A DNA stretch of 64,000 nt from a virus. A model generated the notes under the pieces. The model saw only the letters and a list, made by a program, of their open reading frames with translations. It did no database searches and was not told where the DNA came from. The DNA lies in IMG/VR virus record IMGVR_UViG_3300046462_000310, positions 1 through 64,000 of that record; one strand, 5' to 3'. The translations under genes were made by a program, and so were the position numbers. Numbering within the stretch: the first letter of the stretch is position 1; every line of letters starts with the position of its first letter. This document shows positions 5,486 through 63,269 of the stretch, in pieces.

Positions 5486-5493
5486 ATTATTTA

Positions 5494-33602: not shown

Positions 33603-36023
33603 TCATACTGCTGACTGTGGCGGACCTTGATCTTGTGGAGCTTCGGGTGGCGGAGGCGGCGCCGCGGGTTCATCCGGGTGCTGACCTTGATTCAATGGAG
33701 GCAACCCCGCCGTCTGTAGCACTCCGTTAATATCGTCCACGCTTACGGGCGCACCCGCCTTCATTAACGCCGCAAGCATCTGACCGACCGAACTCGGCTT
33801 GTCGTTGGACGGCTGGTTGGCCGACAAATCCACTGGTTGAACCATCTTGTCGGACTGGCTTATACCAAGGCCTTTTAATCGTTGGCGCACGTACGTAGCG
33901 ACCTTTTGCTGCCATACGAACGGCAGATTGATAAACCAATCCATGAGCTTCGTGGCAACGTCCCCTTGCTGCAGCGCCCGCTGTTCCTGCGTCCGTGACA
34001 ACTCAAGCGTCACGTTCAATGCCAGCTCGCGCACCTCGCCCGGTTCCAACGAAAGAATCTCGTCGGCCTCGCCATTAAAGAAGCTAAACACTTCCGTACG
34101 ATTCATGTTCGCGTAAATGATCTCGATAACCGATTGCAACGCGCCTTTTACGCCGGGGAATAAAGACGCCAGTATGAGTGAGAATAGTTCCTCGCCGCTC
34201 TCAGTAATGATGTTCTCTCCCGTAGCTGTCTCGCTGCTTGGCAGCCCGCTCATCTTCTGGTCGCCAGGGTTGATCTTCCCGCTCTTGAGCTGCATCGCCT
34301 GCATAAACAGATCGATCAGGTATTGCAAATTATCCTGGTCCGTCGGTAACACCACGTAACTCAGGATCTCTTCTGTCTTCTGCCCGACGTTACGCTTGGT
34401 GTAAGTCTTCCCGTGCTGCAGCTTCAGGTTGGGGTCACGACTGCCTTCTACTGTCGCGCTAGGCTCCCAGAACGTTACCCTGCCGGCTCCGCTCGTGGCA
34501 AAGTTGTGGCGGTTAATCTGTAGATCGATGAACTCTTGTTCCGGGTCGAAGTACTCCATTGATCCGAAGCCATACCATCGACCATCTATGGCCATAGGGC
34601 GCCATACGTAAAAGGGCCGAAGCCCACGCACGGTCACATTGGCCAAATACTCGTAATAGATCGGAGCCTTATGCTTTCGGTCGAGAACCAGCATGATCTC
34701 TTCCTGTATCCCGTCGTTGTCCGCGTCGTAGGTCAGGTACACTTCAGCCACTTCCACGATCGGCACTCCGACCGCGCCCGTGGTATCCGTCTCCTTGAAA
34801 TCCACTCGCGGTTGTTCCGTGGCTGATTTCGGGATATTGGTTTCGCCCAGCATTGCCCGCAGCCGTTCCACTGCCGCCGTCATGTTCGAGATCGCTTCGT
34901 CGCCTTCCCCGTACTGTCCGCGGAACATCTCCGCGATTTGCATTGCGTTCTTATCGTAGAGATGCGCAATCAGATCGGCCTGTTGCACGTCCCCCGCCGA
35001 TTCTGGGCACAGAAAATCTTTGTAATAGACGACCGCTGCCTCTGGACCTTCGAACGTCACTAGCCGCCGCGTGATCACCTGCTCTTTCCAGACTGGCTTC
35101 GGAGGTAGCTTCGTAACTCCGTCCCGCTTTAATACCTGGTTCCCGGTGGGAACTAACTGCTGGGCACTCTGATCAACCGCGCCAGGCTCCGGACCCGTAA
35201 AATAATTCTTCACCCTCTGTATAATTCCGGGATCGGGCGGTCCTATCTCTGGCATCCACGCGTCCCCTTCCACAATGTAATCCCCGTTGGCGTCCAGCAT
35301 CGGAGCATCGATTGACGGCTTTCCGCTGTCATCCGGTCCACCCATCAGAATTGTGGCCGTCCGCTTGTAAATCTGTCCACGCTCCTGGTGCGTGACCTTT
35401 AGGACTGATTCACCACGCACAAAAGCGAACTCCAGTGCTTCAATGAAGTGGTCTTTTACGCTACGCTGTCCACTATCAGGTTGTGCTACTTTCCATCGGC
35501 TGTGCTTCTTCACCTTCTCCGAGAGCGTCTCGTCCTCGGAGCCCACCGCGCTGGTCGAAAACCAATCCGTGTCATCCGGTTTACCGAAAAAGAAATTGGT
35601 CGCACTGGCCACCATTTGTTTTGTGATCCTCTGCGAAAGCGAAGCCGTTAGATTCGATTCAGAGTAAATCGTATCCGGAGAAACACGGTCCTCGACATGA
35701 TTGTAATATCGAAGCGTGTATTTCTCGCGTTTACCCATGAACGAGTTCGGGTTATCGATCGACGCCCTGAGCGTTCCCTGCCCGCGCCCCGTCGTTCCCG
35801 TTTCCTTGATCTTGCGTCCGAGCTGATCTTCCAGTTGTTGCAACCGAAGAATGGCATGCTGCACCAGCGCGTCTTCCTGGTCGCGCGTCAGCACATACGA
35901 AGTCTTGAACGGCATCCGTGGCTCTTTCGGATCCTCTTCTTTCGCCGGCGGTAACTGCTCATCGCGTAGATTAGCAATCTGATCGGCTGCCTTCGGCGTT
36001 TCTTCGTTTACGTTTCCGGCCAT
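33603..36023 (-). CDS. Portal protein
   Basis: 806 residues. Central features typical of large podovirus-type portals: ITKQMVASATNFFFGKPDDT, VKDHFIEALEFAFVRGESVL, RPFYVWRPMAIDGRWYGFGS and NEFID-like segments with TATGENIITESGEELFSLIL. The C-terminus is a Pro-rich tail (EPAAPPPPPEAPQDQGPP). It forms the dodecameric ring for DNA packaging and tail docking. Starts at ATG 36023, overlapping the RusA-like gene by 16 bases. Confidence 0.82.
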   Translation of the reverse strand: MAGNVNEETPKAADQIANLRDEQLPPAKEEDPKEPRMPFKTSYVLTRDQEDALVQHAILRLQQLEDQLGRKIKETGTTGRGQGTLRASIDNPNSFMGKREKYTLRYYNHVEDRVSPDTIYSESNLTASLSQRITKQMVASATNFFFGKPDDTDWFSTSAVGSEDETLSEKVKKHSRWKVAQPDSGQRSVKDHFIEALEFAFVRGESVLKVTHQERGQIYKRTATILMGGPDDSGKPSIDAPMLDANGDYIVEGDAWMPEIGPPDPGIIQRVKNYFTGPEPGAVDQSAQQLVPTGNQVLKRDGVTKLPPKPVWKEQVITRRLVTFEGPEAAVVYYKDFLCPESAGDVQQADLIAHLYDKNAMQIAEMFRGQYGEGDEAISNMTAAVERLRAMLGETNIPKSATEQPRVDFKETDTTGAVGVPIVEVAEVYLTYDADNDGIQEEIMLVLDRKHKAPIYYEYLANVTVRGLRPFYVWRPMAIDGRWYGFGSMEYFDPEQEFIDLQINRHNFATSGAGRVTFWEPSATVEGSRDPNLKLQHGKTYTKRNVGQKTEEILSYVVLPTDQDNLQYLIDLFMQAMQLKSGKINPGDQKMSGLPSSETATGENIITESGEELFSLILASLFPGVKGALQSVIEIIYANMNRTEVFSFFNGEADEILSLEPGEVRELALNVTLELSRTQEQRALQQGDVATKLMDWFINLPFVWQQKVATYVRQRLKGLGISQSDKMVQPVDLSANQPSNDKPSSVGQMLAALMKAGAPVSVDDINGVLQTAGLPPLNQGQHPDEPAAPPPPPEAPQDQGPPQSAV

Positions 36024-44776: not shown

Positions 44777-47700
44777 TTACGCTGCTTGCTTCCATTGCTT
44801 CACGATGTTTACACGGTTCGCCTGCGGTGTCGAACCTTTCGGAAACATCTCGCGCTTGATTTGCTCCGTAGCTTGAGTGTGTAGTTTCTCGATCAGTTTT
44901 ACGTCTTCCTCAGTGGGTTTGGCGATCTGTTGAGATGTGAACCGTCCGGTTAAAAGTTGGTCGAACCGTTTGCCGGCCGCGATCTGATACTTGGTCGATT
45001 GCGCAGGCGTCATCTGCTGCGTCTTCCCATGAATATCTTGGTATGTCGTTCCGGGCTCGGTAACGGCCTTTTGGTCTCGTGGGTGACTATTATTCCAATG
45101 AATCAGGAGGCGATCTGCCTTTTTGAGTTCATCGTACGGATGAATAGCGGCCATCGTGAACATTCGGGTGAACCAGTTCCCCGTCTTTTTAACAGGGTTT
45201 CCGTACACGTCGATCTTCGGCTGCCGCAGACTCGGCATCGGCAAGAGATTGTATGCGAGATTCGAGTGTTTGGCGTCAGGGACGAAATCATCGTAGTTGC
45301 GCAACGGTTGACGGATTAGATTCGGCACCAGCCAGTTCAGGAACAGGTGAGGCACGGCCTGTGTCACCGGGGTTTCACCCGAGAACATCTTCGAGAGACC
45401 GTCCAGGTTCATCAGGAAACTCTTCTCGTCTGTCTGGGCGAGCAGATAACCGGCTAACGCGTCCACGGCTTCCCGCGGCCCCAGTTCGCCCTTGAGGAGA
45501 TGCTTCGTGTTGATCAACGTGTCAGCCACGGTCCCTAGTATCGTCGCCGCCGGTTCGTATTTTCCGTAATTGAAATTTACCCCGTTGCGGCCACCTATCC
45601 TAATCACGTAAGGACCGCCATACGCCCGCTGTTGTAGTTCTCTCACGCCTTTCTTGAGTTGCGTGTAAGGCGTCGAACCTGTGATTAAAACGTGCTTATC
45701 GTCGTCGTCACTGTCGCCAGCTATAATTCGCCAAATGATTGCGCCAACGGCCAGTGCCGCTATCGACTTGGCGATGTCTCGGATCTGTTGCGGTTGCGAG
45801 TAGTTAGATTGAAACTTTTCGCCGTTCCAATTAAAAAAGCCTTCGCCGGCGTCATACGAAGACTTGGCCGCTTTCGTGAACTTGATCGGAGTAGTAACCG
45901 GAGCCGCGACACCGCGCGCAGCGTTTTTCAGGTAATTGTATGGAAGCTGCACGAACGGGAAGAAATACCCCCAAGCGTGACTCCGGCTCCTGGTCTGCGC
46001 GAACTGCCCTACCGCGTTGTCTATCCAGTTGCCCTTAATTCCACGAACCCAGTTTCCTTTCGAGTCCTTGAATGGCACGGGTTCTCGTAACGCCATCCAC
46101 TTAGCGAAATCTGCAGCCTTAATCCATGCCGGGCTGCCAGGCGTAGCGACAAGCTCGTTCATTCGTTTCGTAAGCGCATCCCCAGAGAGTCCTTCTCGTT
46201 TAGCCATCCGGTACGCTACCGGCGTAACTTCCATCATCCCGTTCAACGTTTTAATGAATCCGTCCACGAACCACAGAACTCGCGTCGGCATCCTGATGAC
46301 GCGTCCCCGTACGGGGTTCCAATTCCCGAGATTCTTCTGTAGCGCGTCCTCGACAGGTTTGGCTTTGTCACCAAAAAACTGTTGCAATGGTCGCTCGGAA
46401 ATGGACGGACGGTGAAAGGTTTGCTCCGCGTTAAGTTCGCCTGGGTACAGTTCGGACTGACTGTTTAGAACCTCTTGATCGAATATGTCACTCTCTGTGG
46501 ACCATTGACGGGCGCCTACTCGCAACGCTCGGGCCAGCGAAGGAACCACTCCCCTGAAGATGTATTTGAACTCCTTGAACGTCGGCGCATCCGAGTTCTG
46601 GTACATCGGCATGAGATTAACAAGACTTTCGAGTCCGCGCATAACGGTGAACTCGAAAGCACTGTTCGCTAGTAAACCAACCTTGTACGTGATGTGCGTG
46701 GTAGGACCGGATAGCAGATTTTGGAGTCCCGCTTCGTAAATCATGTCGGCGCGATTACCGTTAGCCGCCTGAGCTACGCGCGCAATCTTCGCGACATCAT
46801 CCACGCTCCCGAGATCCGCGCCTTTACGCACCATCATCTCTTGATACAGCGGCAATCCAGGCTGCCCGAGCACTCTGCCGGTGTAGGGCGGCTTTTGACC
46901 TTCAGGATACGGAACCGGAGCGTTCTCCCGACGCGCAACATCTTCCGGGGATTCTATCACGGTCCGCGGCACCTTCGGCGGAACGAAAATCTTAGAGCGT
47001 TTCCGCTTTGTCACCTTGAATGTCCCTTGATCCTTCGCGGATACCAATCCCATGCCACGCATGATCTTGCGGGCCTCGGCTAACGCGTCCGCGTCGCTGA
47101 TCTCCTGAGCGCGAAGTGGCTGCGTTGCCAACATCCCCTCGAAACTCATATTCTCGACGCGTAGCCCTGCCTTCACCTTGGCAACCAATTCCTTCTCAAC
47201 CTGGTCGTTAAACTGGTCGATCGTGTCTCTCACGTCCTTCTCTGTGAGTCCTGTCGCCTTGGCGATCTCTTTCGAGGTTCGCTCCCCACCGATCGCCAGC
47301 TTTAAGGCTTTCTGATGCGGCACATCCAGATTTTTGCGCTGGTTTTCCAGAAATTCTTTCCCTTTCCCGTGCAACTCCCAGCCGCCGCCCATAATGTCTT
47401 CGAGTGTCACGCCACCCTTGGAAATGTAGGAAAAGGCCTTTTCAAGCTGGTCCAGGCGCTCTTTCATGGCGGCATCAAGCATCGCGCGCTTCTTCGCCTT
47501 ATCGGGCTCACGCTCAATCTCCGCTTCCTTTGCCGGCGGCAATGTCGAAATCACTTTGGTTAGAAATTCCCGATTCCGTTCCTCGGGCGTCTTATGCGGG
47601 TCGAATCCAGCCGCGAGATCCCGCGCGGTCTGTCCACGGATGTTCCGATAAGCAAATCCTGCCGCAAACATATTGCGGAGTCCTTCAGGAGAGGTGTCCC

Positions 47701-50700
47701 GACTCAGATCGGCCAGAAGCGTCTTAGCCGCCATCACTTCGCTGTCACGCAAGGTATCGCCATTCAACCATCGTTGCGCGACTTCTGTGGCCGAGATCGG
47801 ATTCTTCTCAGCTTCCCGCTGCATTTGGTCCCGCGACTTCGGTTTCCAGAGATCAGTGTAATACTGGTCCACCGCGCGCTGCGACGCTTCGCTGGCACCC
47901 ATCGCCAGGTCAGGACGCCCAATGGTGTAACGCCCGCGCTCTTCCGCGTTCGACTTATCGAACAAATTCTCAAGCTCATCCGTATTCAGGCTGTCGATTA
48001 ACTGTTGTAACGGATCCGCGCTGGATTGCGCTTTGAGTTCGTCCTTAACGTAAGAATCTATGACATTCAGTGCATCACCTGATTCCAGTCCACCCTCGTC
48101 ACTGGTAAATGTATATCCTTGCTTTTTTGTAAGCGCCAAGGCCTCATCTCTGTCAACAAACCGGCCTTTGGATGTCGTGTAACCGTACTCCGTTCTGTCA
48201 TCCTGAGAGATTACGAACCTTGCCGTGCTGTCAGGAATGGCGTCCACTAATGCGTCGGCGTGCGTACCCAGTGAGGTAACGACGCGACCGTTAGGTAATT
48301 TGACCGCTACCTTTTCAATCCTCTCGTCTTTCGAAATCGGCTGACTCAACAAATCACTCACCTTCGTAATGCCCACTTCCCCCAGCTTCCGACGCATCCG
48401 TTCCATAGCGGTTGTTGCCAACTTACTCACAGCCTGCGGGCTCACCCCGATCCCGTCCGCGATTTCCCTAATCGATTTCCCTTCCAAAATGCCGTTGAGC
48501 GCAGCCTGCATCCGTTCCGGTAACTGCGTCACTAATTCGTTGATCACCTTGCGCCCTTCATCCAGTGCCGCTTCACTGCGCACATCGGACGTGCTGGGAA
48601 TTAAATCCTTACTTGTCTCGTTCCGGCCCTCGATCGGCGCCTCAAGCGATCGCGTTTCCTGAATCCGTTTCAACCGGTTCCCGCGATCATACAACCCGCG
48701 CAGCTCATTCCGGACCGCCGTGACCGCAAACGGCCGAAACGCGCCCTTGTCCGGATGGTACGATTCCGCCGCGCGGGCCAACGCAATCCGGGCGTGTTGC
48801 TCCAAGTCATCTCGTTCCAGAGGGCCTTTGACGTTCTCGAAACTACGGGCAATCCTCATAGCTAGTGGTAATTCTTCATTAAATCTCTCCGTAGCTGGAG
48901 ACGGACCGCCCTCGGGCCGCTGCGTAACTAATGGCTGTGATCGCAAAGTCTGGACCGCTTCCCTGATCGGCGTTCCCGCCCCGGCCCCCGCGTAGCTTTG
49001 CACCGCCTCGTATGCGTGATCTCGGTCCAGGAATCGCCCATTGGTTGTGGTGAATCCCTCCAGTAATCCAGGGATACTTCCCTCAGACCATCCCCGCCTG
49101 CTCACTTTCCCCTCTCGGGCTGCAGCGTACGCCGCAGATAAGGCGTCATCGTGATATGCCCCCGTGAAAATCTGACCATCCGGAAGCCGCACCGCCGCCG
49201 CCGAGATCCGTTCCCCCTCGTTATTGATCGGCTGACTCCGCAGAACGTTTAACGCCTGCGTCCGCAACGCCACGCCCTTGCCGGTGCGTTCCTGCTCAAT
49301 CACATCAAACACTTTCTGCCACGCGGTATCCAGCACAGATCGTTCCTCGCCCTCCGGATAGGGTTTGAGATCGAACATCTGGTAGAACTTGTTCTCAACT
49401 CCGTGCACTAGGTAATCACTACGACGCCCTTCCGCCGACAGCTTGTCATGCACGAACGATTCGAACGACCGCGCCCCCATCTCGTGCGGAGTGCTCCAAT
49501 AATCGCTCGATCGAAAATCATCGATCTTGCGCGACTCCCTGAAGTAATCCGTCGGACGCGATTTCACTTCCGTTACGCCTTCACTCGCCTTGGCGAGACG
49601 TTCTTGCGCGTCAAACATCGATTTCAACTGCCAAAAGAGTTGCTTGCCGAGGCTGTGATCCGCGCTGGTCGCGAAGCTGCGTCCGAGCACCTCCTTGTAA
49701 ACCGAGTTCAAATCTTCAATCGCCTGGTAACTCTCTCGTCCGCCAAACCTGCTCTTCTCGCTCTCGATAAATTTCCGATCTCCAACATCTCCGGCTTCAA
49801 TCTTCGCCGAGATCGTATCAAACCGTTGCAACTGCTGTGAAGTAGGCGGCTTCTTCGACCGAGAATAAACGTGATACGTCTCCAGTTGCCGGCGAATATC
49901 TTTCAGTGTGCTCGCGACGTGTTCACTCATCCTGTCGGCGTTCTTTTCCGCCAGTGACTTATCGATCTCGCCTGTGACATTTTTGCGAACCATCGCCTCC
50001 ATCACGGCTTTAAAGGCGTCCTCCAGTTCAGCGCGAACCTTCGTTTTATAACTGAATCCGTGGCTCACGTAGTTACCAGCCTTATTGGCGGAAACCTTGA
50101 ATGTGCCCTCCGTCGTCTTTTCGGAAGGCGCCTTGGTGTCCTGTCGCGCCAGATAATGATCGAACGCGTGAAACCACTCATGCGCCGCGCTACCAGCCCC
50201 CTTGATCTTCGTCAGGTTTATGACTGCGTAATCCGGCTCGTAATGAGCGCGAGCGCCTTCCAAACCGTGTCCGCGCGCTCCAAATGCTATCGCCAGTTCG
50301 CCGTTCAGTGATAACGCGCGTGGATCTACGCCCAGCGCATGCGCGAGGTCATACATGGCATCGTAAGCGTGATTGAGTGCCGCCTGTCCTGAACTCCCCA
50401 TATTCCAGTTACCAAACTCGCCGCCGCGAAACCCAAACGCGCTCTGAAACATCCTCGGAGTAACATCGCCGAGCTTCGAAGTCGTAGCGGGTCGATGCGC
50501 CGGGCCGGTGCGCTCAATGTGGTCCAGCCACGGTTTCTCCGGGAAATTGAATTTATGATTGATGATCTCTTCTGGGTTTGTCGCCATGTAGTGCATGGCG
50601 TCCTCGCGAGTTGCGAACCCGTCCTTAACGGTTGGACGCTTCCGTGGCCCAAGGCTGCGCTGGATGGCATAGTTATCGGTTTCGCCTGAGCGCGCGATAT

Positions 50701-53700
50701 TGCGAACATCGTGGTTCCGCGACACCTCTAGTAACGGAATCGCCTTTTCAGCTTCCGCCTTGCTCTGGAACGCTGATCGACTCGCTAACCCGCCATCGCT
50801 CAACCCGATCACCCATTCGCCCGGTTTCCGAGCGTCCTCAAAGACGTGATATTTACGCATCCACGATGGTCTCTCATCCGCTGTCTTGCCTTCGCCTTTC
50901 GGACCAGTCTTTTCGGCCAAGTCTTTGCGCGCCCCACCAATCTTCTCTCCGAAATCCTGAATCACCGCGTTCGAAGCGCGATGCAATTCCGAACCAGCGA
51001 CCGGCGATGTCTCAGGAACTCCTAGTGGGAGTTCTTCCGAGACCGAGGCAGGCTGTTGAGTTTCGCCCGTTTCGGCAACTTTAATCCCTTGCTCGCCTGG
51101 TTCCACTCGTCCACGTTGACTCCCTGTTTCTCCAACTCCTTCTTGTGGATGTTGAAGTACGCCGCCTGTTTCAGGCTTTTGTATGGCATTTGATTCTCCT
51201 CCTGTATTTCTCTCAGCTAACGCGACAGCGTTTCGCTGTTCACCTGCATCCAACCGATCAAACAAATTCAACTGACCCGGAAATTCTCTATTCGCGAAGC
51301 GCGAACGTAATCTCTGGGAGAACAACGTCCCTTGCTCTTCGCCTTCCGGCATCCTTCCGACAGCACCGCGCTGATCAAACAACCCCTGCTGCGATTGCAC
51401 CTCGCCGCCTTGAATCGGACCTTCTGTCCATTTCGCCTTGAATTGCGCAACAGATTGCTGCCCGCGCGTCTCATCGCCAAACATGAGTTTCTGTCCCAGC
51501 GCGGACTCGGCCTTGTCGAGTACGCGCCTCTGATTCTGAGTTAACTTGGCACCGCTCTGCTCCAGTGAGAAAAGTTTCCGGTAAATTTTAGCCCAATCCT
51601 GTAGTGATCGCTGCACCGGCTCGGACGTAATTTGAGGAACTGTGTAAAGCGGAGCCTCACCAGATTCACGAGCGGCAATCTCAGCCTCCATTTTTGATCG
51701 TGTAGGCTCATCGGCAGACTGAACCCTCTGTTTGAGTTCCTCTGTCGTGTATGCTGGGAATGTCCTGCGACGCGTGGCAGACGACTGCGCCACGTTCCAA
51801 AGCATCTCCCTATCAGTGTCATTCGTGGTCGTCTTTTGCGCCTTCAGTATCGCCGCCGCACTCGGTGGCTCCTCATCCCCGAAAAACCGTTGCTGATTCG
51901 GATCCCCGTAATCCACAACCGCTTTCACGTATCGCATTAGCGGATCCACCACCTGCTTAACGCTTCGAGCGTTCGCTAAAAGCTCTAGTATCCGAGCATC
52001 CAACGGATCTGTAGCCACGGCCCTGTGGGCCGTCCCAAGATCGAATGCTCCTTGCGAAAAATAATCCGATACGTTCCTGACTTCACCCGAGTCCTTCGCC
52101 CGTCTGTAATCCAGTAACGTCGTCAACGCGCGTCCCAGATTCGGTGTAATCGATAATGACGGGTTGATCGTATCCACGTTCACTATCGCCGGACCAACCT
52201 TCGATAATCCCGACACCACCTGTCGTATCCCAGGCGTGTTGATGTTATCCATCAAACTCGATAGTACCCTGTCCACGCCCGGTTGTTCACCGAGTAGATG
52301 TGCCAATAGCGCGGCCTGAGCGCGACGCTCAATCTTGCCGTTGTCCGGCGTACCATCTTCAAATCGGAGCTCTTTAGGAGCCCCAACGGAGTTGTAAAAC
52401 GCCGTCAAAAATTCGTGATTGAAACTGCCGTCCTCGTTCGGATTCAACGATTGCGTAAGCGTCGGATCAGAGAACAAATTGCGATCGGATAACGCTGTCT
52501 CCGCAATGCTCCGTTGCTCCGTAGCAGCCGTGTTACTCGCCTTAACCAATTCCTGTTGGCTGAGACCGCCGCGCTCCGCAGATGTCACGCGGACGAGTGC
52601 CACCGGTTCGCCATCTGGAATATCAGTTTTGATCCCGAGTCGCGCAGCCTCGCCGCGCGCCCACTTATCGTAAATCGCAGCCTTATCCGGATGCGACGCA
52701 TACATGTCCCGGATCGCCATCGTCCGATTATTCCCAACTTCAACGCTGCCATCAGGCGTAGTAATCGGAGCCCCATCATTCAGCGTAGGCGACGCGCCCC
52801 AAGCGATTTCCACATTCTCCGGCGTAAGATTCTGTATGATCTCCAGCCGTTGCGCAGCGCCAGTCCGTTCCCGGTCAATCCTATCCTGCGCGGCCCCGCG
52901 CTCAGTGTTGATGGTAAGCGACTTGATAGGCGCAAGCGCCCATTTCCCAGAAATCACTTCCGACCCACGGGGATTCTTCGTGCGCCACTCACCCGCCAAA
53001 GGAATCGATTGCCCCTTAAACTCAGTAGAGTTTCCTAATTCAACATTGGGCGTTGGGCGTTGAGTGTTTGGGGTTTCTCCCGCCGTTCCTACGGCTCCAG
53101 TTCCTCGATCAGTCTCCCCGCCTCCGTCACGTCCACTGCCCACTGGAACAGTTCCAGCCTGAACGCCTCCCGTTGCTCCAGATTCTCTTGTACTTGAATT
53201 GTCAGGTGCGGTGGCTCCGGCACCGACGGAAGGATGAACCTCGGATGTTTTTGTAACTGGGGATTGCTCATCAAAACGACCACGTAGCACGTATGCCAAA
53301 AGCTGTTCAGCCGAAACCGGTATTTTTGATTCTTTCGAGGCCGCAACGGCTTCCTGTATGCGCGACTTCGGCGACCGAACCCCGATTTTCACCGCCGCTT
53401 TCGTAGCAGCAACAACCTCTGCCTTCTCCGATTCCTCTTCAGTTCGACGTTGGGCGTTGGGCGTTGAGCGTTCGGCGTTTGCCGCTAATTCAATTCGGCT
53501 CGCTGGTTCAACCGCTCCACCAGAAACTTCCGGGACACCCGTATCTCCTCTTCCAGTTCCGCGAGTCCCTGTAATCTCTCCAGCACCAGCACCCGCTCCT
53601 TCGCCTCGTGTCTCCCCAGGAGGACCACGGGCAGTTTGTTCGGTGGGAACATTGCTTTTAGCTTTGGTTTCACTACTACCCTTTCCAGACTCCATCTGGG

Positions 53701-56700
53701 CGTGAGCGTCAACCTCTTTTACTTTACTGCGGATAAATTCCTGCGCTTGCCCGACCTGTTTTACTAGATCCTCGTCGGCGCCGGACTTGCGAAGTTGCCC
53801 CTGCATATCACGAAAAAACCGGAGCAAAGTCGCAAGCGCCTTTCGGTTTTCGACGATGAATTGTCGGCTCGACTGCTCCGGTAGAAATTTGTCTTTCAGT
53901 CTAATCTTGCGGCCTTTGGCCAGTTGCATGTCGCCCGCCAGCCAATAGGCCCACATCTCATGCGCAAAATGGTAATCGCTCGAGCCTTCCGATTTATAGA
54001 AGGTCCGCATGGCGTCCTGAATCTTTTTCGGGAGCGACTGGTAAATCTTAACCAGGTCGATGGGGCCGCGCACTTCGCCCGTCTTCGGATCCCGATTTTC
54101 CAACGCCGTAGTGACCGCATGCGTAACTTCGTGCGTCATAATGTTCGACGTGTGATCGGGGCTGCCCGTGTATTCCGCCGCGTGCCGAATCACGTCAGGA
54201 ACCGAAATTACGAGTTTCCGTTCCGTAGATAGTAACGCGCCACCGCTCTGTTGCCCTTCCAGTGTAAATCCGACACCCTGGAACGCTTTCTGCCAGCGTT
54301 CGTATTCCGGCTGCAGCACTTTCGCCACCACGCGCACCTGTTTATCTTCCGCTGGCGTGAGCTCTCCGCCCTTCTCCGCCGCGGCGCTGGCCACTGCGCT
54401 CTCGACAAAATCATGTGGCTGGACTGCTTCGGTCGGGCCCGGCACTCGTGTAACATCACGAACCATGCCTTTGCCGGGCTGGATCTCACCTGCGACCTGC
54501 GCTTGCGCGGCCTGCTCACTCGGAGCCTGGACTTGTTTGATCTCCCGTTCACCCTTTGGCCCTTCCACTTCCACCGCAAAAGTCGGTTGCGATTCGGGCT
54601 TGAGCGTCTGTTGCCGCTGGGTTTCTTCATCCTTCGGCAAAATCTGAGCTGTAATCGGAGCAATCTGTTGAACCCGCGCCAGCGCCGCGTCGGTGATAAT
54701 CGGCTTCGATCCGTCTGGGCCTTTCGCCATCTCCACGCGAGCAACGCCGTTCTCGTCTTTGGATAAAACGGCCTTCTTCTCCGCAGCCGTAAGCGCATCC
54801 ATCGGCTGCCCCTGCGAAATCTTAACGAGACCACGAAGCGCATCCTGTGTGACCGCATGCTCTTCGGGCGTCTTACCCTCCATCTGTAGGTTGTCGATCT
54901 CCTGGTGAGCCTGATCGACGGTCGGACGAGCAGCCGGTGCTTGCTTTTCCGTTGGACGTTGAACGTTTTCGGGCTGACCTGCGTTCCCCGTGGAACCTTC
55001 AACCGTAGCCCCAGTCTCCGGTTTAGGAACCGGCTTGTATTCCATCCCTAACGACTGCGCGAACGCCGCCACCTTCTCATGCGTAGTGCCTGCTACTTCT
55101 GGATCAATGCCACCGAAAAACGCGCGAAACTCCGGAGAAACACCGTCTTTTTTTGCCTTCGCGATGGATTCCTTGACTAAATCCGCTGTCTCCGGCCTCG
55201 CGTTCGCGGCCATACTCGCTGCCCTCTTGAAAGTGTCACCCAGCCCTTCACCGCTCAGGATTCCCATAATCGCCGCAGCTTGAGCTATAGATTGGAACGT
55301 CGGGTAATGAACCTCGTCTGGATTAAGACCGATCGCGTGCGTAGCCGCATCGAATCCCGGCCTTAACGCAGCCTCGAACGCAACCCCAGCACCAGCACCA
55401 CTGGCGAGTTTAGTAGCGATGAACTTTACCGCAGCACCCGCTCCCTGTTTCTCGGAAATAACGCTGGCTGCCTTAGCAAAACCTTGATACGAAGCGACCG
55501 CAGCCGGTCCCATGCCAGCGATCTCGCCGGCCGCCGCGTATCCTGGTTCCAACTTCGCGCTGCTTTCCAGCGAATTAACCAAGTCGCTGTAATTTGACGC
55601 GCGATCCAGTAATGCACCCGCCGCCTTTTGCGTGATTGCCGTGCCAGCCAGGAAAGCTATACCGTGCACTAGAGCAGGTAAGGCCACCGCACCCCAGCCG
55701 CCGACAGGAGCAGTCAGGCTCGCACCACCAACCGCCAATTCAGGATCGAACGGAACCACCGCAGCCGAAGCGGCAGCACCACCTTGAAACGCGAGATAAG
55801 ACTTGATCCCCGTATCTACGAACGCCTTGAGTTTCGGATTACTGCCGGCGGCATCCATCAACGCCTTATATTCGTCGTCAGCCTTCCGAGCGTCGGCCAA
55901 GTGGTCCTTGACGTAATCGGGAGACAACGCGCCATCGCGCATGGCTTTTATCATCGCTGGTCCAGTGTAGCCACGTTCGAACGACACGGTTCCGGCGTCT
56001 TTATCGGTGTGGTAAAGTCCGTCGGGAGTGTTACCTGATTCCCAATCCTTGCTGATTTCCTTCTCGGCTAATGCCCTCGATGTTGCATCCTTGGCTATTT
56101 GCTGAAGTTCTGGGCTTAACGTTGGCTGCCCAGCTCCGGCCTGGACCTGGTTGAACTTCTCCTGTAGCGCATCCCGCTGCGGAGCTAAAACAGCCTCGTT
56201 GTCCTCAAATTGCTGTTGTACCACCGAGTTGCGCTCGTTCGCCATCTGGTCGTGCGCGTCGATCAACGGTTGCAATTGCGCTTTTCGCTGTTGAACCTCG
56301 TCCAGCATCGGATTCAACCGGTTCAATAACGTCTGGACCTGCGCTTTCTCGCGAATATCCGTCAAATCACCGATCGATCGACCGCCCAAAATCGTGTTCA
56401 CCCGGTCCTGCAGCTTGCCAGCGACCTTCTCAAGCGGGTCGATTTGCGCCTGGGCCGCTTGGATTTCAGCGCGGGCCGGATTTAACCTGTCGTCATACGC
56501 CTTAGCGGTCGCATTGAGCGCATCCGAAACGTCATTGTGCGCCGCGTCCAGCGCATCGCGTTCCTGCATCAGTGGGCCGTAATTCGGGTCGTTCCTGAAT
56601 TGCGCTTCCTGGTCTTGCTCCTGGCCTACACCCAGTTGCGCTTTACGGTCCTTTAGTGCTTTCAGGACTGGATCTTGTTCAGGGTCGAGGCCGCGAGCGC

Positions 56701-57898
56701 CGAGCGCGTCTTCGCGCTGCTGGATTACGCGGTCGAAATCTCCTTGCTCTTTCGGAGCTACTTCACTCCATCCCGCGCGGTTAGCATGAGCATCTTTCAA
56801 CGCCTGGCGTGCACCGGAGAGCTCTTGCGCGACGCGACTTTGCGGATTTAGAACCGAATCGCTCTTCGCGCTACCGGGCGAGACTGACGTTCCCGCGGGC
56901 GAGTAACCGGCTTCCGTTAGATCCTGAATCTGTTTTTCGAGTTCAGCCTTTCGGTCTTGAGCGGCTTTCGCGCCTTGCGATAAAGTGCCGCCTACACCAA
57001 AAATTCCGACACTATCCTTTTCGTTGAGTTTATCGGGCGTGATCCCATCGAGTTCCTTTTGTAACGCCTGTATCTGCTGCGCGTTCGCCTGAATGTCCTT
57101 AACTCGGGATTGAACATCCGAGAAAGCAGAATTGACGTGTTCCCCGAGAGTTTCCTGAACCGCTGCGTGCAATTTTTTGTCCAGCGACAGCTTCGCCTCT
57201 TGCGCCGCCGCCTGGATATTTGGATCCTTGCTCTTTAATCCTTCATCGATTGTCCCTAGCGATTCCCACGGCGAATACTTGTTCTGCTTGAAGAGATGGT
57301 TCGGATAATCCGAGTGCGTCCCGATCGGAGCGTTGGCGTCAGGCTGGACCTGTTTCGGGCCCGAAGGCGTGTATTGCGTCTGTTGCGCTTGCCCTTGCTG
57401 GTCGTAGGTCACTGGGCCTTTGCCGGTCTTGTAAATGACGTTCCCGTTTTCGTCGCGCTGCGGGACAAGATTCCCGTTCTCATCGCGCTCAGTCAGCACG
57501 CGACTCTGGCGAAGCGTATCCGCCGTTTCCGCGTTATCGGCCTGTTGCTCGGGCCCAACCGCGGAACCGGCCAATCGTTGCTGGTAACGATAAGTCGATT
57601 GCGCGTAGTCATTCCATTTCTCGGCAGGAACAGGGACATTGATAACTTGTCCGCGCCGGCCGCGTCGCTGCGTCGGTTGCGGTTCCTTCGGCGGCTCAAG
57701 CGTGTCGCCAGGATCTGGAACATCCGTCAGTTCTACCGGCTGCGTCTGTGTGGCAGGACGAGCAAGCGGCTGCGCGTCCGCCACGGGATATGCGTTCGCC
57801 GGAGCACTCGGAGTGAGTGGTCTGTTTCCTACGCTTGAATCTACCCTGGCTCCCTGCTGTTGCTCTTCTTGAGGATCTTGGTCATCGGGATACGCCAT
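44777..57898 (-). CDS. Giant polyvalent protein with zincin, ParB-like and sigma-factor domains
   Basis: 4373 residues from ATG 57898 (MAYPDDQDPQEEQQQG). In order: low-complexity and coiled coil (to about 690); a hydrophobic Ala/Gly stretch (about 690-760); a zincin-like HEVTHAV (about 1255); a DdrB/ParB-like domain (about 1630-1920; GNNRTMAIRDMY); an LPD1-like polyvalent-protein domain (about 2450-2830) with AAHEWFHAFDHY; and a two-domain sigma factor (about 3005-3180; YHPDKGAFRPFAVTAVRNEL, then SIREIADGIGVSPQAVSKLA). A further HTH-like segment and a conserved C-terminus with a membrane helix near 4040 follow. Large polyvalent proteins are often ejected with phage DNA. Enzymatic activity is inferred from motifs only. 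Confidence 0.88.
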   Translation of the reverse strand: MAYPDDQDPQEEQQQGARVDSSVGNRPLTPSAPANAYPVADAQPLARPATQTQPVELTDVPDPGDTLEPPKEPQPTQRRGRRGQVINVPVPAEKWNDYAQSTYRYQQRLAGSAVGPEQQADNAETADTLRQSRVLTERDENGNLVPQRDENGNVIYKTGKGPVTYDQQGQAQQTQYTPSGPKQVQPDANAPIGTHSDYPNHLFKQNKYSPWESLGTIDEGLKSKDPNIQAAAQEAKLSLDKKLHAAVQETLGEHVNSAFSDVQSRVKDIQANAQQIQALQKELDGITPDKLNEKDSVGIFGVGGTLSQGAKAAQDRKAELEKQIQDLTEAGYSPAGTSVSPGSAKSDSVLNPQSRVAQELSGARQALKDAHANRAGWSEVAPKEQGDFDRVIQQREDALGARGLDPEQDPVLKALKDRKAQLGVGQEQDQEAQFRNDPNYGPLMQERDALDAAHNDVSDALNATAKAYDDRLNPARAEIQAAQAQIDPLEKVAGKLQDRVNTILGGRSIGDLTDIREKAQVQTLLNRLNPMLDEVQQRKAQLQPLIDAHDQMANERNSVVQQQFEDNEAVLAPQRDALQEKFNQVQAGAGQPTLSPELQQIAKDATSRALAEKEISKDWESGNTPDGLYHTDKDAGTVSFERGYTGPAMIKAMRDGALSPDYVKDHLADARKADDEYKALMDAAGSNPKLKAFVDTGIKSYLAFQGGAAASAAVVPFDPELAVGGASLTAPVGGWGAVALPALVHGIAFLAGTAITQKAAGALLDRASNYSDLVNSLESSAKLEPGYAAAGEIAGMGPAAVASYQGFAKAASVISEKQGAGAAVKFIATKLASGAGAGVAFEAALRPGFDAATHAIGLNPDEVHYPTFQSIAQAAAIMGILSGEGLGDTFKRAASMAANARPETADLVKESIAKAKKDGVSPEFRAFFGGIDPEVAGTTHEKVAAFAQSLGMEYKPVPKPETGATVEGSTGNAGQPENVQRPTEKQAPAARPTVDQAHQEIDNLQMEGKTPEEHAVTQDALRGLVKISQGQPMDALTAAEKKAVLSKDENGVARVEMAKGPDGSKPIITDAALARVQQIAPITAQILPKDEETQRQQTLKPESQPTFAVEVEGPKGEREIKQVQAPSEQAAQAQVAGEIQPGKGMVRDVTRVPGPTEAVQPHDFVESAVASAAAEKGGELTPAEDKQVRVVAKVLQPEYERWQKAFQGVGFTLEGQQSGGALLSTERKLVISVPDVIRHAAEYTGSPDHTSNIMTHEVTHAVTTALENRDPKTGEVRGPIDLVKIYQSLPKKIQDAMRTFYKSEGSSDYHFAHEMWAYWLAGDMQLAKGRKIRLKDKFLPEQSSRQFIVENRKALATLLRFFRDMQGQLRKSGADEDLVKQVGQAQEFIRSKVKEVDAHAQMESGKGSSETKAKSNVPTEQTARGPPGETRGEGAGAGAGEITGTRGTGRGDTGVPEVSGGAVEPASRIELAANAERSTPNAQRRTEEESEKAEVVAATKAAVKIGVRSPKSRIQEAVAASKESKIPVSAEQLLAYVLRGRFDEQSPVTKTSEVHPSVGAGATAPDNSSTRESGATGGVQAGTVPVGSGRDGGGETDRGTGAVGTAGETPNTQRPTPNVELGNSTEFKGQSIPLAGEWRTKNPRGSEVISGKWALAPIKSLTINTERGAAQDRIDRERTGAAQRLEIIQNLTPENVEIAWGASPTLNDGAPITTPDGSVEVGNNRTMAIRDMYASHPDKAAIYDKWARGEAARLGIKTDIPDGEPVALVRVTSAERGGLSQQELVKASNTAATEQRSIAETALSDRNLFSDPTLTQSLNPNEDGSFNHEFLTAFYNSVGAPKELRFEDGTPDNGKIERRAQAALLAHLLGEQPGVDRVLSSLMDNINTPGIRQVVSGLSKVGPAIVNVDTINPSLSITPNLGRALTTLLDYRRAKDSGEVRNVSDYFSQGAFDLGTAHRAVATDPLDARILELLANARSVKQVVDPLMRYVKAVVDYGDPNQQRFFGDEEPPSAAAILKAQKTTTNDTDREMLWNVAQSSATRRRTFPAYTTEELKQRVQSADEPTRSKMEAEIAARESGEAPLYTVPQITSEPVQRSLQDWAKIYRKLFSLEQSGAKLTQNQRRVLDKAESALGQKLMFGDETRGQQSVAQFKAKWTEGPIQGGEVQSQQGLFDQRGAVGRMPEGEEQGTLFSQRLRSRFANREFPGQLNLFDRLDAGEQRNAVALAERNTGGESNAIQKPETGGVLQHPQEGVGETGSQRGRVEPGEQGIKVAETGETQQPASVSEELPLGVPETSPVAGSELHRASNAVIQDFGEKIGGARKDLAEKTGPKGEGKTADERPSWMRKYHVFEDARKPGEWVIGLSDGGLASRSAFQSKAEAEKAIPLLEVSRNHDVRNIARSGETDNYAIQRSLGPRKRPTVKDGFATREDAMHYMATNPEEIINHKFNFPEKPWLDHIERTGPAHRPATTSKLGDVTPRMFQSAFGFRGGEFGNWNMGSSGQAALNHAYDAMYDLAHALGVDPRALSLNGELAIAFGARGHGLEGARAHYEPDYAVINLTKIKGAGSAAHEWFHAFDHYLARQDTKAPSEKTTEGTFKVSANKAGNYVSHGFSYKTKVRAELEDAFKAVMEAMVRKNVTGEIDKSLAEKNADRMSEHVASTLKDIRRQLETYHVYSRSKKPPTSQQLQRFDTISAKIEAGDVGDRKFIESEKSRFGGRESYQAIEDLNSVYKEVLGRSFATSADHSLGKQLFWQLKSMFDAQERLAKASEGVTEVKSRPTDYFRESRKIDDFRSSDYWSTPHEMGARSFESFVHDKLSAEGRRSDYLVHGVENKFYQMFDLKPYPEGEERSVLDTAWQKVFDVIEQERTGKGVALRTQALNVLRSQPINNEGERISAAAVRLPDGQIFTGAYHDDALSAAYAAAREGKVSRRGWSEGSIPGLLEGFTTTNGRFLDRDHAYEAVQSYAGAGAGTPIREAVQTLRSQPLVTQRPEGGPSPATERFNEELPLAMRIARSFENVKGPLERDDLEQHARIALARAAESYHPDKGAFRPFAVTAVRNELRGLYDRGNRLKRIQETRSLEAPIEGRNETSKDLIPSTSDVRSEAALDEGRKVINELVTQLPERMQAALNGILEGKSIREIADGIGVSPQAVSKLATTAMERMRRKLGEVGITKVSDLLSQPISKDERIEKVAVKLPNGRVVTSLGTHADALVDAIPDSTARFVISQDDRTEYGYTTSKGRFVDRDEALALTKKQGYTFTSDEGGLESGDALNVIDSYVKDELKAQSSADPLQQLIDSLNTDELENLFDKSNAEERGRYTIGRPDLAMGASEASQRAVDQYYTDLWKPKSRDQMQREAEKNPISATEVAQRWLNGDTLRDSEVMAAKTLLADLSRDTSPEGLRNMFAAGFAYRNIRGQTARDLAAGFDPHKTPEERNREFLTKVISTLPPAKEAEIEREPDKAKKRAMLDAAMKERLDQLEKAFSYISKGGVTLEDIMGGGWELHGKGKEFLENQRKNLDVPHQKALKLAIGGERTSKEIAKATGLTEKDVRDTIDQFNDQVEKELVAKVKAGLRVENMSFEGMLATQPLRAQEISDADALAEARKIMRGMGLVSAKDQGTFKVTKRKRSKIFVPPKVPRTVIESPEDVARRENAPVPYPEGQKPPYTGRVLGQPGLPLYQEMMVRKGADLGSVDDVAKIARVAQAANGNRADMIYEAGLQNLLSGPTTHITYKVGLLANSAFEFTVMRGLESLVNLMPMYQNSDAPTFKEFKYIFRGVVPSLARALRVGARQWSTESDIFDQEVLNSQSELYPGELNAEQTFHRPSISERPLQQFFGDKAKPVEDALQKNLGNWNPVRGRVIRMPTRVLWFVDGFIKTLNGMMEVTPVAYRMAKREGLSGDALTKRMNELVATPGSPAWIKAADFAKWMALREPVPFKDSKGNWVRGIKGNWIDNAVGQFAQTRSRSHAWGYFFPFVQLPYNYLKNAARGVAAPVTTPIKFTKAAKSSYDAGEGFFNWNGEKFQSNYSQPQQIRDIAKSIAALAVGAIIWRIIAGDSDDDDKHVLITGSTPYTQLKKGVRELQQRAYGGPYVIRIGGRNGVNFNYGKYEPAATILGTVADTLINTKHLLKGELGPREAVDALAGYLLAQTDEKSFLMNLDGLSKMFSGETPVTQAVPHLFLNWLVPNLIRQPLRNYDDFVPDAKHSNLAYNLLPMPSLRQPKIDVYGNPVKKTGNWFTRMFTMAAIHPYDELKKADRLLIHWNNSHPRDQKAVTEPGTTYQDIHGKTQQMTPAQSTKYQIAAGKRFDQLLTGRFTSQQIAKPTEEDVKLIEKLHTQATEQIKREMFPKGSTPQANRVNIVKQWKQAA
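51224..51240. repeat. Dispersed palindrome copy 13 (GACAGCGTTTCGCTGTT)
   Basis: Inside the giant gene, in frame near residue 2220, in a low-complexity linker; last base differs. Confidence 0.75.
53041..53075. repeat. GTTGGGCGTT-type repeat 1 in the giant gene
   Basis: Repeated 9-mers of the form GTTGGGCGTTGAGTGTT; the minus strand encodes PNTQRPTPNVELG. Related arrays at 53441-53480 and about 54949-54972. Confidence 0.7.
53441..53480. repeat. GTTGGGCGTT-type repeat 2 in the giant gene
   Basis: Contains CGTTGGGCGTTGGGCGTTGA; encodes NAERSTPNAQRRTEEE on the minus strand. Confidence 0.7.
54949..54972. repeat. GTTGGACGTT-type repeat 3 in the giant gene
   Basis: Shortest copy (CGTTGGACGTTGAACGTTT); encodes NVQRPTEK. 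Confidence 0.6.
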
Positions 57899-57899
57899 A

Positions 57900-58595
57900 T
57901 CACGCACCCTCCGTAACTGGAGATTTATGGCGCTTCGGATGGAAGACCGCGCGCTTATGATCCCAACCAGCCGAAATCCGATCCAAGATAGTTCCGTAGC
58001 TTATACCCCCACGCTCACTCCATTCCTTGACGCATAAGGTTTCCCCGGAGATGGACAACCTGATGTTAGTTCTTCGATTTCTGGCCTGATCTTTTGACGT
58101 TACCCAACGACAATTCGAAAGCTCGTAGTTCCCGTTCATGTCAACCCGATCGATCGAAGTTCCGACCGGCTTCTCGCCCATGTCAGCTAGGAAGTTTTCG
58201 AAATCCTGCCAACGCTCGCATACTCGTATCCCGCGACCGCCGTACTGCGGGAAATTTTTACTCCTTGGATTTAAGCAACGCTCGCGCATCCCGCGCCAGC
58301 ACTCGTAGGTCTTAGTGCTAGGCTTATCTAATCTTCGCGTGTGTCCGTGCGTAGATCGGTTGCGATTGGATCGCGACAACCTTTCTCGTCCCAAGCACCC
58401 ACAACTGCGCGAATTTCCACGGACTAGGTTTCCTTCAAGAACAGGAATTGGCGCCTGATTTCCGCAGCCACAAATGCAAAGCCATGTTCGGCATTTCTTG
58501 CCGCTGGGTTGAATGTGATCCTTGCCGCGCTGAATGACTTCAAATCGACCGAACTCGCGGCCTATCAGTCCGTCTTCATCGCAGTCATAATCCAT
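57900..58595 (-). CDS. Homing endonuclease of the phage HNH/AP2-like family (copy 2)
   Basis: 231 residues. The N-terminus has a Cys-rich finger (CRTWLCICGCGNQ, GNSRSCGCLG). The nuclease core follows: YECWRGMRERCLNPRS, YGGRGIRVCERWQDFENFLA, VGTSIDRVDMNGNYELSNCR. Its end carries a helix-turn-helix region (SERGGISYGTILDRISAGW). Same family as 42636-43214, but with an extra zinc-finger module. It ends one base before the giant gene start, an ideal spot to spread without harming neighbours. Confidence 0.88.
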   Translation of the reverse strand: MDYDCDEDGLIGREFGRFEVIQRGKDHIQPSGKKCRTWLCICGCGNQAPIPVLEGNLVRGNSRSCGCLGRERLSRSNRNRSTHGHTRRLDKPSTKTYECWRGMRERCLNPRSKNFPQYGGRGIRVCERWQDFENFLADMGEKPVGTSIDRVDMNGNYELSNCRWVTSKDQARNRRTNIRLSISGETLCVKEWSERGGISYGTILDRISAGWDHKRAVFHPKRHKSPVTEGA

Positions 58596-60545: not shown

Positions 60546-61397
60546 CTAACGAGTCACAGCGTTAATATTGCATCTGTGACAGAGCGGTTGAAATTCGTCG
60601 TAGCCAAGCATGAACATCTGACCCTGATTTTTTTCCTTGTACCACGCCGGGGGGTGATCCTCCCAACCCCACGGAAATTTTGGGAGCAATTCCTGCTCTA
60701 AATCTCGTATCCTTTTGGCTTCCTTGGGGAACCATATCTCGAGTTCTGAAAGCTCACCAGGTTCCGCAAACGCTCCGCATAAACACTCTCCACTCTTATG
60801 AATCAGGTCCACCACTTCATTCCTGTGTAGTGCGCAGTGAGCCATGCAGGTGGAGCAGTCCTTTTTAGTAAAATCATGGATGGCGTTTAACCACACTTGT
60901 CTGCCTTTCTTTTGGGGTTCAGGTTTGACGTTCCCCATTCTACGAACGCTCTCATCTGATCTCGCTCCACTAATATAGAGCACGGGTCGGACTGGGGTTG
61001 CCCTTATGTCTCTCTCGAATCTAGCTAGCTGTCTTTCTTTTAACTGGACGTACATGGCGTAGTGCTGTGGTGCTCCGGGAAAACCATGCTCCCTCACAAT
61101 ATCTTCGTAAATCTGTGGGTCCGGCGTTCCGTCAGCCTTGGTGTTTTCTGTCGCCTTGTATTCACGTAGGTTCCAATTTCTATTAGAGCAAGTTGCCCTG
61201 ACGTAATCTCGTGTCTGCTCGACTCCGATTCCAGTATTGATATGCAGTGTGGTATCCGCGCCCGATTCATTCGCGATGAGTGTTGCCGTTGCGCTGTCGT
61301 GCCCTCCGCTAAACAACGCCACTATTGCGATCGGATTAAATCGATCTACCGCTGAACGAACGCGATCAGTGGCGCGTTGAATTAATTCTTTCACCAC
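60546..61397 (-). CDS. PAPS-reductase-like PP-loop protein with Cys clusters
   Basis: 283 residues. IVALFSGGHDSATATLIANE is the PP-loop (SGGxDS) of ATP pyrophosphatases. TTLHINTGIGVEQTRDYVRA follows the PAPS-reductase/DndC-like pattern. C-terminal Cys groups (CSTCMAHC, CLCGAF, CHRC) could bind a metal or an Fe-S cluster. Phage members may act in sulfur incorporation or DNA modification, but no dnd or deazaguanine partners are visible here. It overlaps the terminase start region by 7 bases. Confidence 0.8.
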   Translation of the reverse strand: MVKELIQRATDRVRSAVDRFNPIAIVALFSGGHDSATATLIANESGADTTLHINTGIGVEQTRDYVRATCSNRNWNLREYKATENTKADGTPDPQIYEDIVREHGFPGAPQHYAMYVQLKERQLARFERDIRATPVRPVLYISGARSDESVRRMGNVKPEPQKKGRQVWLNAIHDFTKKDCSTCMAHCALHRNEVVDLIHKSGECLCGAFAEPGELSELEIWFPKEAKRIRDLEQELLPKFPWGWEDHPPAWYKEKNQGQMFMLGYDEFQPLCHRCNINAVTR

Positions 61398-63175
61398 CTC
61401 TGCGCCCCACCCGGTTTACTCAGTTCGGCTTCTTCGAGTTTCCGGAGATCGGGCGGTAGCCTTGGCGCAATCCGCGGCTCGGAGTAAGTCGTGGCGCCGG
61501 CGACGCACATCAGGCCAATCGCCGTCTCTAATACCGTGTCGTCGTGTTTCCCCGGCATCGCCTCACTGCGGCCGTTAGCCTTAACCACGAAGTTTTGCAT
61601 CTCGGCAAGTGTAATCGGGCAATGAATCTCGATTCCTTCACTTTGCGTCCCACGTTCACGAATCGCTCGAGCAAGGTTCTCGATCATCATCTCGCGCGTA
61701 GCCGTTGTCGTTTGCCAGCCGTACGCTTTGGTTGTTTTGTTATCTCGGCGATTGAACACCTCGCGCAAATAAATGTTCGCACCGATCCGCAGCTTCAATA
61801 GCTCAATCAGTCCGCGGTCCATGTTCACTTCCGGAACGATCAAGCAGTTGCCGTAATATTGTGCCAGCCGCCATACTTGCTCTTCTAACACGTCGATGTC
61901 CCATCGCAGTTCGTATTTCCGGTTACGTTCCCATGCGCCCCAGTCGTCAATCAGGCGCGCAACCTTTTTTGGCATCACCCAGCCGCGTCCTGAATCGAAA
62001 TATCCCGCGCGGGTCACACTGACCGAGTGGTTATCGGGATCTTTCCCGCCCACCTGCGTTTCCCCGGTCATCTGATCGACACTGATTAAATAACGTAGGT
62101 CGCGCTTGGGTAATTCCCATCTCAGTATCCGGGCTTCTTCCGACGTGCACGGGCGCCACACGTATTTGTCACCAGACGGATCGAGTAAACCGAAGTCAGG
62201 CGGGTACAGCTTTGCCGCGGCCACCATCTTTTCAAGAATACCCAGGTTGAACCGCCGACGACCACTCGTTCTAAACGCACTTTCGGCGTCAAACGGGTAA
62301 TCCTCGCAGAATTTGTCAAAATCTTTCGAGCACTCTTCCCTGATCGCCCATTGCATCCACGCGATTTGCCAGTCATCAAGTCCATATTGTTTTCGTAACT
62401 CATCCACCTTCTCGGGGCTCACGCATTGCTCGCGGCCTTCCTCGAGTTTCGGATCCCGCCGGCTATCAGGGAACTGGAACCAGGCTGCGAATAGTTTCAC
62501 GTATCCGTCTTTCCCTGATTTCAGCTCGTCAAAGGTGATTCCGCCCTGCCACCGTTCGTAAAAGTCGCCGCTGGCGCCGTTGGCCGTCGATTCCAGAATG
62601 ATCAGCGTCATCGCCTCTGGCGGAACGCACTTCAGTAATCCCGAAAGCAAATCTGACGCATTAGCCACTCCTTCCTCCGCCCAGCGCGCGACCTCTGTGG
62701 CTACCACCGCCTGATACGTTCCTGATCGGCCGGCCTCGCCGTTCTTAGCCGTCAACTGCTCCATGAACGATCCATTCACCCACCTGGCTTCGCGGTCCAA
62801 CACACTGCATTTATTGCGCGCCTCAAACGTGTCGTTCTGAGCAAAAGTCTTCAACATCCGGAACAGATTCGATGATTGCGCGTGCGCCCCGCCGATAATG
62901 GCGCCGTTCGACCGCATATTCGACAGCCACCGGTAAGCGTTCCACACAGACGACGTGCTACTCCCCTTCTGCCGCGGCTTTAACTTGATCATCCGGCACG
63001 GTTTCCCGTTCATCAGGCACCAGTTCACCACATCGCTCTCAAGTTTCTGTAGATAATTGGCTTTTAGCTCCGGAAACTTGAGTAACTGCCCCACCTTCGG
63101 CTTAATCGCACCGTACGCCTCGAAACACGCCGCCGGCGTGGTCCGAAACATGATCTCGAGCTTTTCCTTAGTCAC
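61391..63175 (-). CDS. Terminase large subunit
   Basis: 594 residues from GTG 63175. The ATPase half has a Walker A-like loop (MIKLKPRQKGSSTSS), LTAKNGEAGRSGTYQAVVAT and Walker B-type LIILESTANGASG. The nuclease half shows LISVDQMTGETQ, VPEVNMDRGLIELL and KHDDTVLETAIGL with conserved Asp residues. It cuts and packages phage DNA. The start is 13 bases from the tRNA gene. A small-subunit gene was not recognised. Confidence 0.9.
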   Translation of the reverse strand: MTKEKLEIMFRTTPAACFEAYGAIKPKVGQLLKFPELKANYLQKLESDVVNWCLMNGKPCRMIKLKPRQKGSSTSSVWNAYRWLSNMRSNGAIIGGAHAQSSNLFRMLKTFAQNDTFEARNKCSVLDREARWVNGSFMEQLTAKNGEAGRSGTYQAVVATEVARWAEEGVANASDLLSGLLKCVPPEAMTLIILESTANGASGDFYERWQGGITFDELKSGKDGYVKLFAAWFQFPDSRRDPKLEEGREQCVSPEKVDELRKQYGLDDWQIAWMQWAIREECSKDFDKFCEDYPFDAESAFRTSGRRRFNLGILEKMVAAAKLYPPDFGLLDPSGDKYVWRPCTSEEARILRWELPKRDLRYLISVDQMTGETQVGGKDPDNHSVSVTRAGYFDSGRGWVMPKKVARLIDDWGAWERNRKYELRWDIDVLEEQVWRLAQYYGNCLIVPEVNMDRGLIELLKLRIGANIYLREVFNRRDNKTTKAYGWQTTTATREMMIENLARAIRERGTQSEGIEIHCPITLAEMQNFVVKANGRSEAMPGKHDDTVLETAIGLMCVAGATTYSEPRIAPRLPPDLRKLEEAELSKPGGAQRW

Positions 63176-63187
63176 ACCGAGAAAAAA

Positions 63188-63262: not shown

Positions 63263-63269
63263 ATAAAAT

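Follow-up and report, generated by a model that had tools for sequence, protein, structure and literature searches.

A sigma-70 unit within a giant polyvalent virus protein that may enter the cell with the phage DNA

Results

A giant polyvalent protein is encoded between terminase and portal

The window, by which we mean the whole 64,000-nucleotide stretch of DNA analysed here, covers the greater part of the 69,736-base record of an uncultured phage. An uninterrupted open reading frame (ORF) on its reverse strand (44777..57907, (-)) starts with GTG and encodes a giant polyvalent protein of 4376 aa with a putative role in ejection. Pfam and NCBIfam profiles revealed several unrelated enzymatic or effector domains in this single ORF, as is characteristic of polyvalent proteins. 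They include a ddrB-ParB domain (52589..52942, (-); aa 1656-1773; PF18763, 47.9 bits), a zincin-like metallopeptidase domain with the motif HEWFH (50117..50512, (-); aa ~2466-2597; alignment, and NF041907 at 134 bits, under that model's own cut-off of 260) and LPD1, the large polyvalent protein-associated domain 1 (49289..49516, (-); aa 2798-2873; PF18796, 66.1 bits).

The gene order is terminase, giant gene, portal, capsid. The large terminase gene (61391..63175, (-); phrog_24361) lies upstream of the giant gene in the same orientation; the genes for the portal protein (33603..36023, (-); phrog_1216) and the major head protein (25739..27307, (-); phrog_334) lie downstream. The order terminase–giant–portal is conserved in the relatives described below, and the portal protein is about 51-53% identical to the one encoded near the giant gene in most of them. 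A position between terminase and portal fits a virion protein.

Close to the giant gene, on either side of it, lie HNH and endonuclease VII genes (57900-58595, 43990-44502 and 42636-43244, (-)); they are perhaps homing endonucleases. A tRNA-Met (CAT) gene (63187-63263, (-)) is located just upstream of the terminase gene. A single DnaB-type helicase gene is split between the ends of the record (window 3-1214; L002 9233-9736), and the record is therefore probably a complete, circularly permuted genome, although it is classed as linear. Other records of the family may be fragments.

The giant protein contains a sigma-70 unit

A first-pass annotation of the sequence had placed a pair of sigma domains, regions 2 and 4, inside the polyvalent protein at 48350-48885. 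The coordinates were right (they correspond to aa ~3008-3186), and profile searches bore out the assignment. The sigma70-ECF profile TIGR02937 spans regions 2-4 (aa 3010-3175) with 70.2 bits and an E-value of 1.5e-19 (cut-off 42.9). Region 2 (48698..48880, (-); aa 3010-3070) was detected by PF04542, Sigma70_r2, with 34.7 bits (cut-off 24), and region 4 with its helix-turn-helix (HTH; 48395..48544, (-); aa 3122-3171) by PF08281, Sigma70_r4_2, with 28.0 bits (cut-off 25.7) and by its fold. Both regions thus score above curated cut-offs. The unit was also matched by phrog_351 and phrog_1740, both described as 'RNA polymerase sigma factor'.

The annotation had overlooked two further elements. One is a linker resembling region 3.2, the sigma finger (SLEAPIEGRNETSKDLIPS; 48593..48649, (-); aa 3087-3105), which aligns in an unbroken profile alignment with SigA and RpoS chains in the PDB. 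The unit at aa ~3005-3190 of the 4376-aa ORF hence consists of region 2, a finger-like linker and region 4. The other is a second sigma4-like HTH further downstream.

Structure prediction, which the annotation had proposed as a check, agreed with these results. In an AF2 model based on seven family sequences, the sigma2 and sigma4 helices were confidently predicted (pLDDT ~75-92) and the linker was loose. Among the best 50 PDB matches of this model in Foldseek nearly all were sigma factors, most of them within RNA polymerase (RNAP) initiation complexes, and the same applied to sigma factors among the named best viral matches. The TM values of these matches were low because the orientation of the linker is free. 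Both the profile scores and the sigma2/sigma4 fold place the unit in the sigma-70 family.

Searched against PDB chains, the profile of the unit matched FliA best (E 3e-15), along with SigA and RpoS. The alignment was unbroken from profile position ~87 across regions 3.2 and 4; regions 3.0 and 3.1 were missing. Given the region 3.2-like linker, the best match to FliA and the lack of regions 3.0 and 3.1, the unit would fall between group 3 and group 4 (ECF).

Region 2 columns kept across the family comprise an Asp and Gln3037 (region 2.2), Phe3057 (region 2.3) and Asn3067. Two tryptophans of sigma70, whose positions we take to belong to region 2.3, are not retained in the family, so that promoter opening is not assured. 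Many alternative sigma factors likewise do without the region 2.3 tryptophans. Judged by its sequence, the unit would be an alternative sigma factor with its own promoter preference rather than a duplicate of the housekeeping sigma.

The second sigma4-like HTH (47177..47314, (-); aa ~3532-3577, or about 3520-3580) sits about 370 aa past region 4. It was matched by HTH_29 (18.1 bits, below the cut-off) and by the sigma factor family phrog_3282 (E 4e-4), and in 6 relatives TIGR02937 matched the same frame a second time. Using hhalign, we compared this HTH with the family's own region 4 and obtained a probability of 89% (E 2e-6); unrelated control windows gave <0.5%. This HTH may contact the beta flap or DNA.

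A domain of ~75 aa is duplicated on either side of the sigma unit (49010-49243 and 48140-48352, (-)), the two copies being 37% identical (E 4e-12). They look as if the sigma unit had been inserted with duplication in the lineage of the window. At the borders of the sigma unit and adjoining modules, the giant protein has four copies of the motif L-x-[ST]-Q-P-[LI] (aa 2888-2894, 2987-2993, 3185-3191 and 3592-3598; about 47113-49246, (-)), which is not preserved in the relatives. The motif might serve as a linker or be cut by the zincin. Release by the zincin is possible for the window protein; it is probably not a general trait of the family, because a search of L092, L094 and L095 gave no match to the zincin region of the window.

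The sigma unit is conserved and co-inherited with a C-terminal module

By alignment-based scans and hmmsearch we found the same sigma unit ahead of a C-terminal module of ~1100 aa in 12 other IMG/VR contigs. The relatives were recovered by alignment queries; single-protein scans of viral contigs gave none. The TIGR02937 cut-off was passed in 10 of the 12 relative records scanned, each time in a frame of 3846-6469 aa. In the same scan, L096 and L084 had the C-terminal module and no sigma match; ejection therefore does not need sigma.

Pfam independently detected the sigma unit in three relatives with very different N-terminal domains. These domains are a Zeta toxin and a SNF2/ResIII-type helicase in L095 and L112, a strawberry-notch-type helicase in L094, and HD and helicase domains with a weak ART-PolyVal match in L092. 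Since the N-terminal domains vary so widely, what stays constant in the protein is the sigma unit together with the C-terminal module.

The sigma units of the relatives are 29-38% identical to that of the window. For close pairs, dN/dS of the unit was 0.05-0.16, which indicates purifying selection, with some dS values saturated; the cleanest pair (dS 0.40) gave 0.09. Identities and distances of the sigma unit correlated with those of the C-terminal module (r=0.92; reached in 0 of 2000 permutations), showing that the two were inherited together. Among 80 loci found via the peptidase, a sigma unit was present in L023 and L039 only, both of which have the C-terminal module. Sigma tracks the C-terminal module rather than the metallopeptidase.

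Scans of the genomes of 84,980 species of bacteria and archaea revealed no prophage with the C-terminal module, and none of 50,697 phage records contained a sequence similar to L101. Sigma matches also occurred in two short human-gut 'phage' records, which were rejected as relatives: they carry stand-alone sigma genes, one of them adjoining plainly bacterial metabolic genes.

Some contigs of 37-51 kb devote more than one-third of their length to a single ORF of 6261-6466 aa (G001:16219-35619, G005:18682-37467, G002:3780-22658). In three giants of this type the first ~2000 aa have no Pfam match. Separately, G006 (30187-30420), G007 (33305-33538) and G009 (5364-5504) have a small ORF of 225-313 aa with a weak match to sigma region 4, which may encode another transcription factor.

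Homology of the C-terminal module with internal virion protein D

The C-terminal module common to all relatives occupies 44813..48097 (-) of the window (aa ~3271-4365; alignments and hmmsearch). In hhalign, an alignment of eight C-terminal modules, that of the window being the first, matched an alignment of four internal virion protein D (IVP-D) proteins with a probability of 99.9% and E 5e-32 over 438 columns. The homologous part lies at 45188..46753 (-), or aa ~3719-4240. As a control, the sigma profile was compared with the same IVP-D alignment and gave 0.3%. In tblastn, the module of the relative L100 matched genes for 'internal virion protein D' of T7-like phages of Pelagibacter, Roseobacter and Synechococcus (E down to 1e-14), and L100 also matched phrog_6651, 'internal virion protein' (E 4e-17).

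In the marine T7-like phages the IVP-D gene lies between the genes for tail tubular protein B and the tail fibre; gene 16 of T7 also precedes the tail fibre gene. T7 gp16 itself, used as a single sequence, did not match the IVP-D alignment, and the term 'ejection protein' therefore rests on the marine T7-like genes, on their position and annotation, and on phrog_6651. An AF2 model of the C-terminal module was of low confidence (pLDDT 39.6) and was left unused. Ejection proteins of the T7 type are packaged and exit the virion together with the DNA (PMC8954989). Given its homology to IVP-D, the giant protein would likewise be delivered with the DNA.

Searches for a phage polymerase and for promoter targets

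We searched the family records for three kinds of RNAP. No T7-like enzyme (PF00940) was found, whereas the positive controls T7 and CRP-804 were detected; unlike the window family, these two genomes carry a T7-type RNAP. A search for an N4-type single-subunit RNAP with the N4 mini-vRNAP also gave none, and the N4 positive control was detected. Nor was an Rpb2-type subunit of a multisubunit RNAP found. The 69.7-kb record contained no second sigma factor, PF04542 region 2 matching once. Five T7-like phages (four with an IVP-D gene, plus T7) had no sigma above the cut-off.

The first-pass annotation had suggested the TTGTCACACG repeats at 28653 and 28684 as targets of the sigma unit. This did not hold: allowing at most 1 mismatch, we counted 6 sites against 4.2 expected, and 27 of 100 shuffles reached as many. 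Six GACAGCGnnnCGCTGTC palindromes are scattered through the window, and the two exact TTGTCACACG copies merely lie on either side of one of them. A search of the window genome for a promoter dyad shared upstream of genes gave top counts equal to those of shuffles. In the G001-G004 set, a CCCC-17-GGGG dyad exceeded shuffles and proved to be an inverted repeat among close relatives.

The six exact copies of the GACAGCGnnnCGCTGTC palindrome (10656, 17818, 19697, 28662, 36724 and 63525) lie mostly at or near gene ends and in intergenic gaps. The palindrome is possibly an operator, a terminator or a repeat element.

Discussion

The giant protein described here combines features of several known systems. 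It resembles gp50, the virion RNAP of N4 (Schitoviridae), in being a giant protein (gp50 has about 3500 aa) that brings transcription machinery with the DNA, delivery being deduced here from the genes. The N4 protein is an ejection protein with a beads-on-a-string architecture (PMC12633501). It brings a whole single-subunit polymerase, whereas the protein of the window has a sigma unit and its family no polymerase that we could find. The C-terminal module is shared with IVP-D of marine T7-like phages (phrog_6651; 438 columns), which also adjoins virion genes. IVP-D, however, has about 1200 aa and no sigma; here the module ends a protein of 3800-6500 aa. LPD1, ddrB-ParB and zincin peptidase domains, and in relatives a SNF2-type helicase, Zeta toxin and weak ART-PolyVal match, recall the polyvalent proteins described by Iyer et al. 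2017 (PMC5512222). In the main text of that survey sigma factors go unmentioned, and the transcription starters listed are N4-like RNAPs.

Stand-alone phage sigma factors, such as the ECF-type proteins of phiEco32 and Privateer and the SigF-like protein of a Bacillus phage, belong to the same sigma-70 family and were matched by Foldseek and tblastn. In four cultured-phage records, these are free proteins of about 227-371 aa, made after infection and not part of a virion protein. No virion sigma factor turned up in searches of the open literature. The domain and the class of delivered protein are each known; their combination and its probable role were not described in the open literature searched.

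We consider it probable that a virion-delivered sigma factor reprograms host RNAP on entry, as the host-polymerase counterpart of the injected N4 vRNAP. Delivery with the DNA, which the first-pass annotation had supposed for polyvalent proteins at large, now appears much better founded: the protein has IVP-D homology, its gene lies in the virion operon beside the portal gene, and no phage RNAP was detected. Added to this are the sigma unit itself, its conservation under selection and its co-inheritance with the C-terminal module. From packaging and ejection to core binding, promoter use and activity, and the timing of the delivered sigma, the course of events would be as follows. The giant protein would be made late and packaged with the genome. 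At infection, the C-terminal IVP-D-like module would push it into the cell. The sigma unit (region 2, finger-like linker and region 4, perhaps aided by the second HTH) would then bind host core RNAP and, ahead of all phage gene expression, steer it to phage promoters. As a tentative and rather doubtful extension, a sigma unit that remained attached to the ejection complex at the inner membrane could recruit host RNAP at the DNA entry pore; transcription, beginning with the end that enters first, would then pull in the rest of the genome, so that phage sigma and host polymerase together would form an entry motor. In N4, the injected polymerase has been suggested to pull in a comparable way (PMC12633501).

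Virion-delivered modification of host RNAP is exemplified by Alt of T4, and the sigma unit might by analogy be a decoy that occupies host core RNAP and halts host transcription with no directed initiation. Further delivered modifiers of this kind, the polyvalent ARTs, appear in the survey cited above (PMC5512222), and both the unconserved region 2.3 tryptophans and the negative search for target promoters would suit a decoy. Such a function needs neither a DNA-reading helix nor a finger, yet the HTH of region 4, the finger-like linker and the Phe of region 2.3 are kept under purifying selection; nor did we find a phage polymerase that would profit from host shutdown. We therefore regard a decoy as unlikely.

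Could sigma instead work as a late (or auto-) transcription factor in the cell that produces the phage, its fusion only coupling late transcription to assembly, with no function on entry? The giant gene does lie in a late operon, and infected cells express stand-alone phage sigma factors, one of which peaks in mid-infection (PMC12282133). A product of the late operon, built into a giant virion protein, would however be a poor switch for that operon, and a free small sigma would serve equally. The 69.7-kb record has no other sigma, and no polymerase was found. This makes a late factor quite unlikely. Least credible is a former sigma that no longer touches RNAP and now serves the ejection complex by binding DNA or as a packing element: the unit does lie amid DNA-related modules with a second HTH downstream, but the core-binding Asp and Gln positions of region 2 are conserved together with region 4, and every sigma-positive record tested matches the full TIGR02937 profile.

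Phages are known to start transcription from strong host-type promoters, by modification of the host polymerase or by injection of a whole polymerase, as in N4 and phiKZ. A sigma factor packaged in the virion and delivered on entry would, if true, be a further answer to the problem of starting transcription on arrival, one that is small and reaches the host's own polymerase. It would add a transcription-initiation domain to the polyvalent repertoire, and it ties one polyvalent group by homology to a family of ejection proteins. The family offers a testable system: its domain boundaries (aa ~3000-3190) are conserved, relatives have been sequenced, and the N4 ejectosome can serve as a model. The presence of sigma inside an ejection-like giant protein suggests that the virus carries its own transcription director along.
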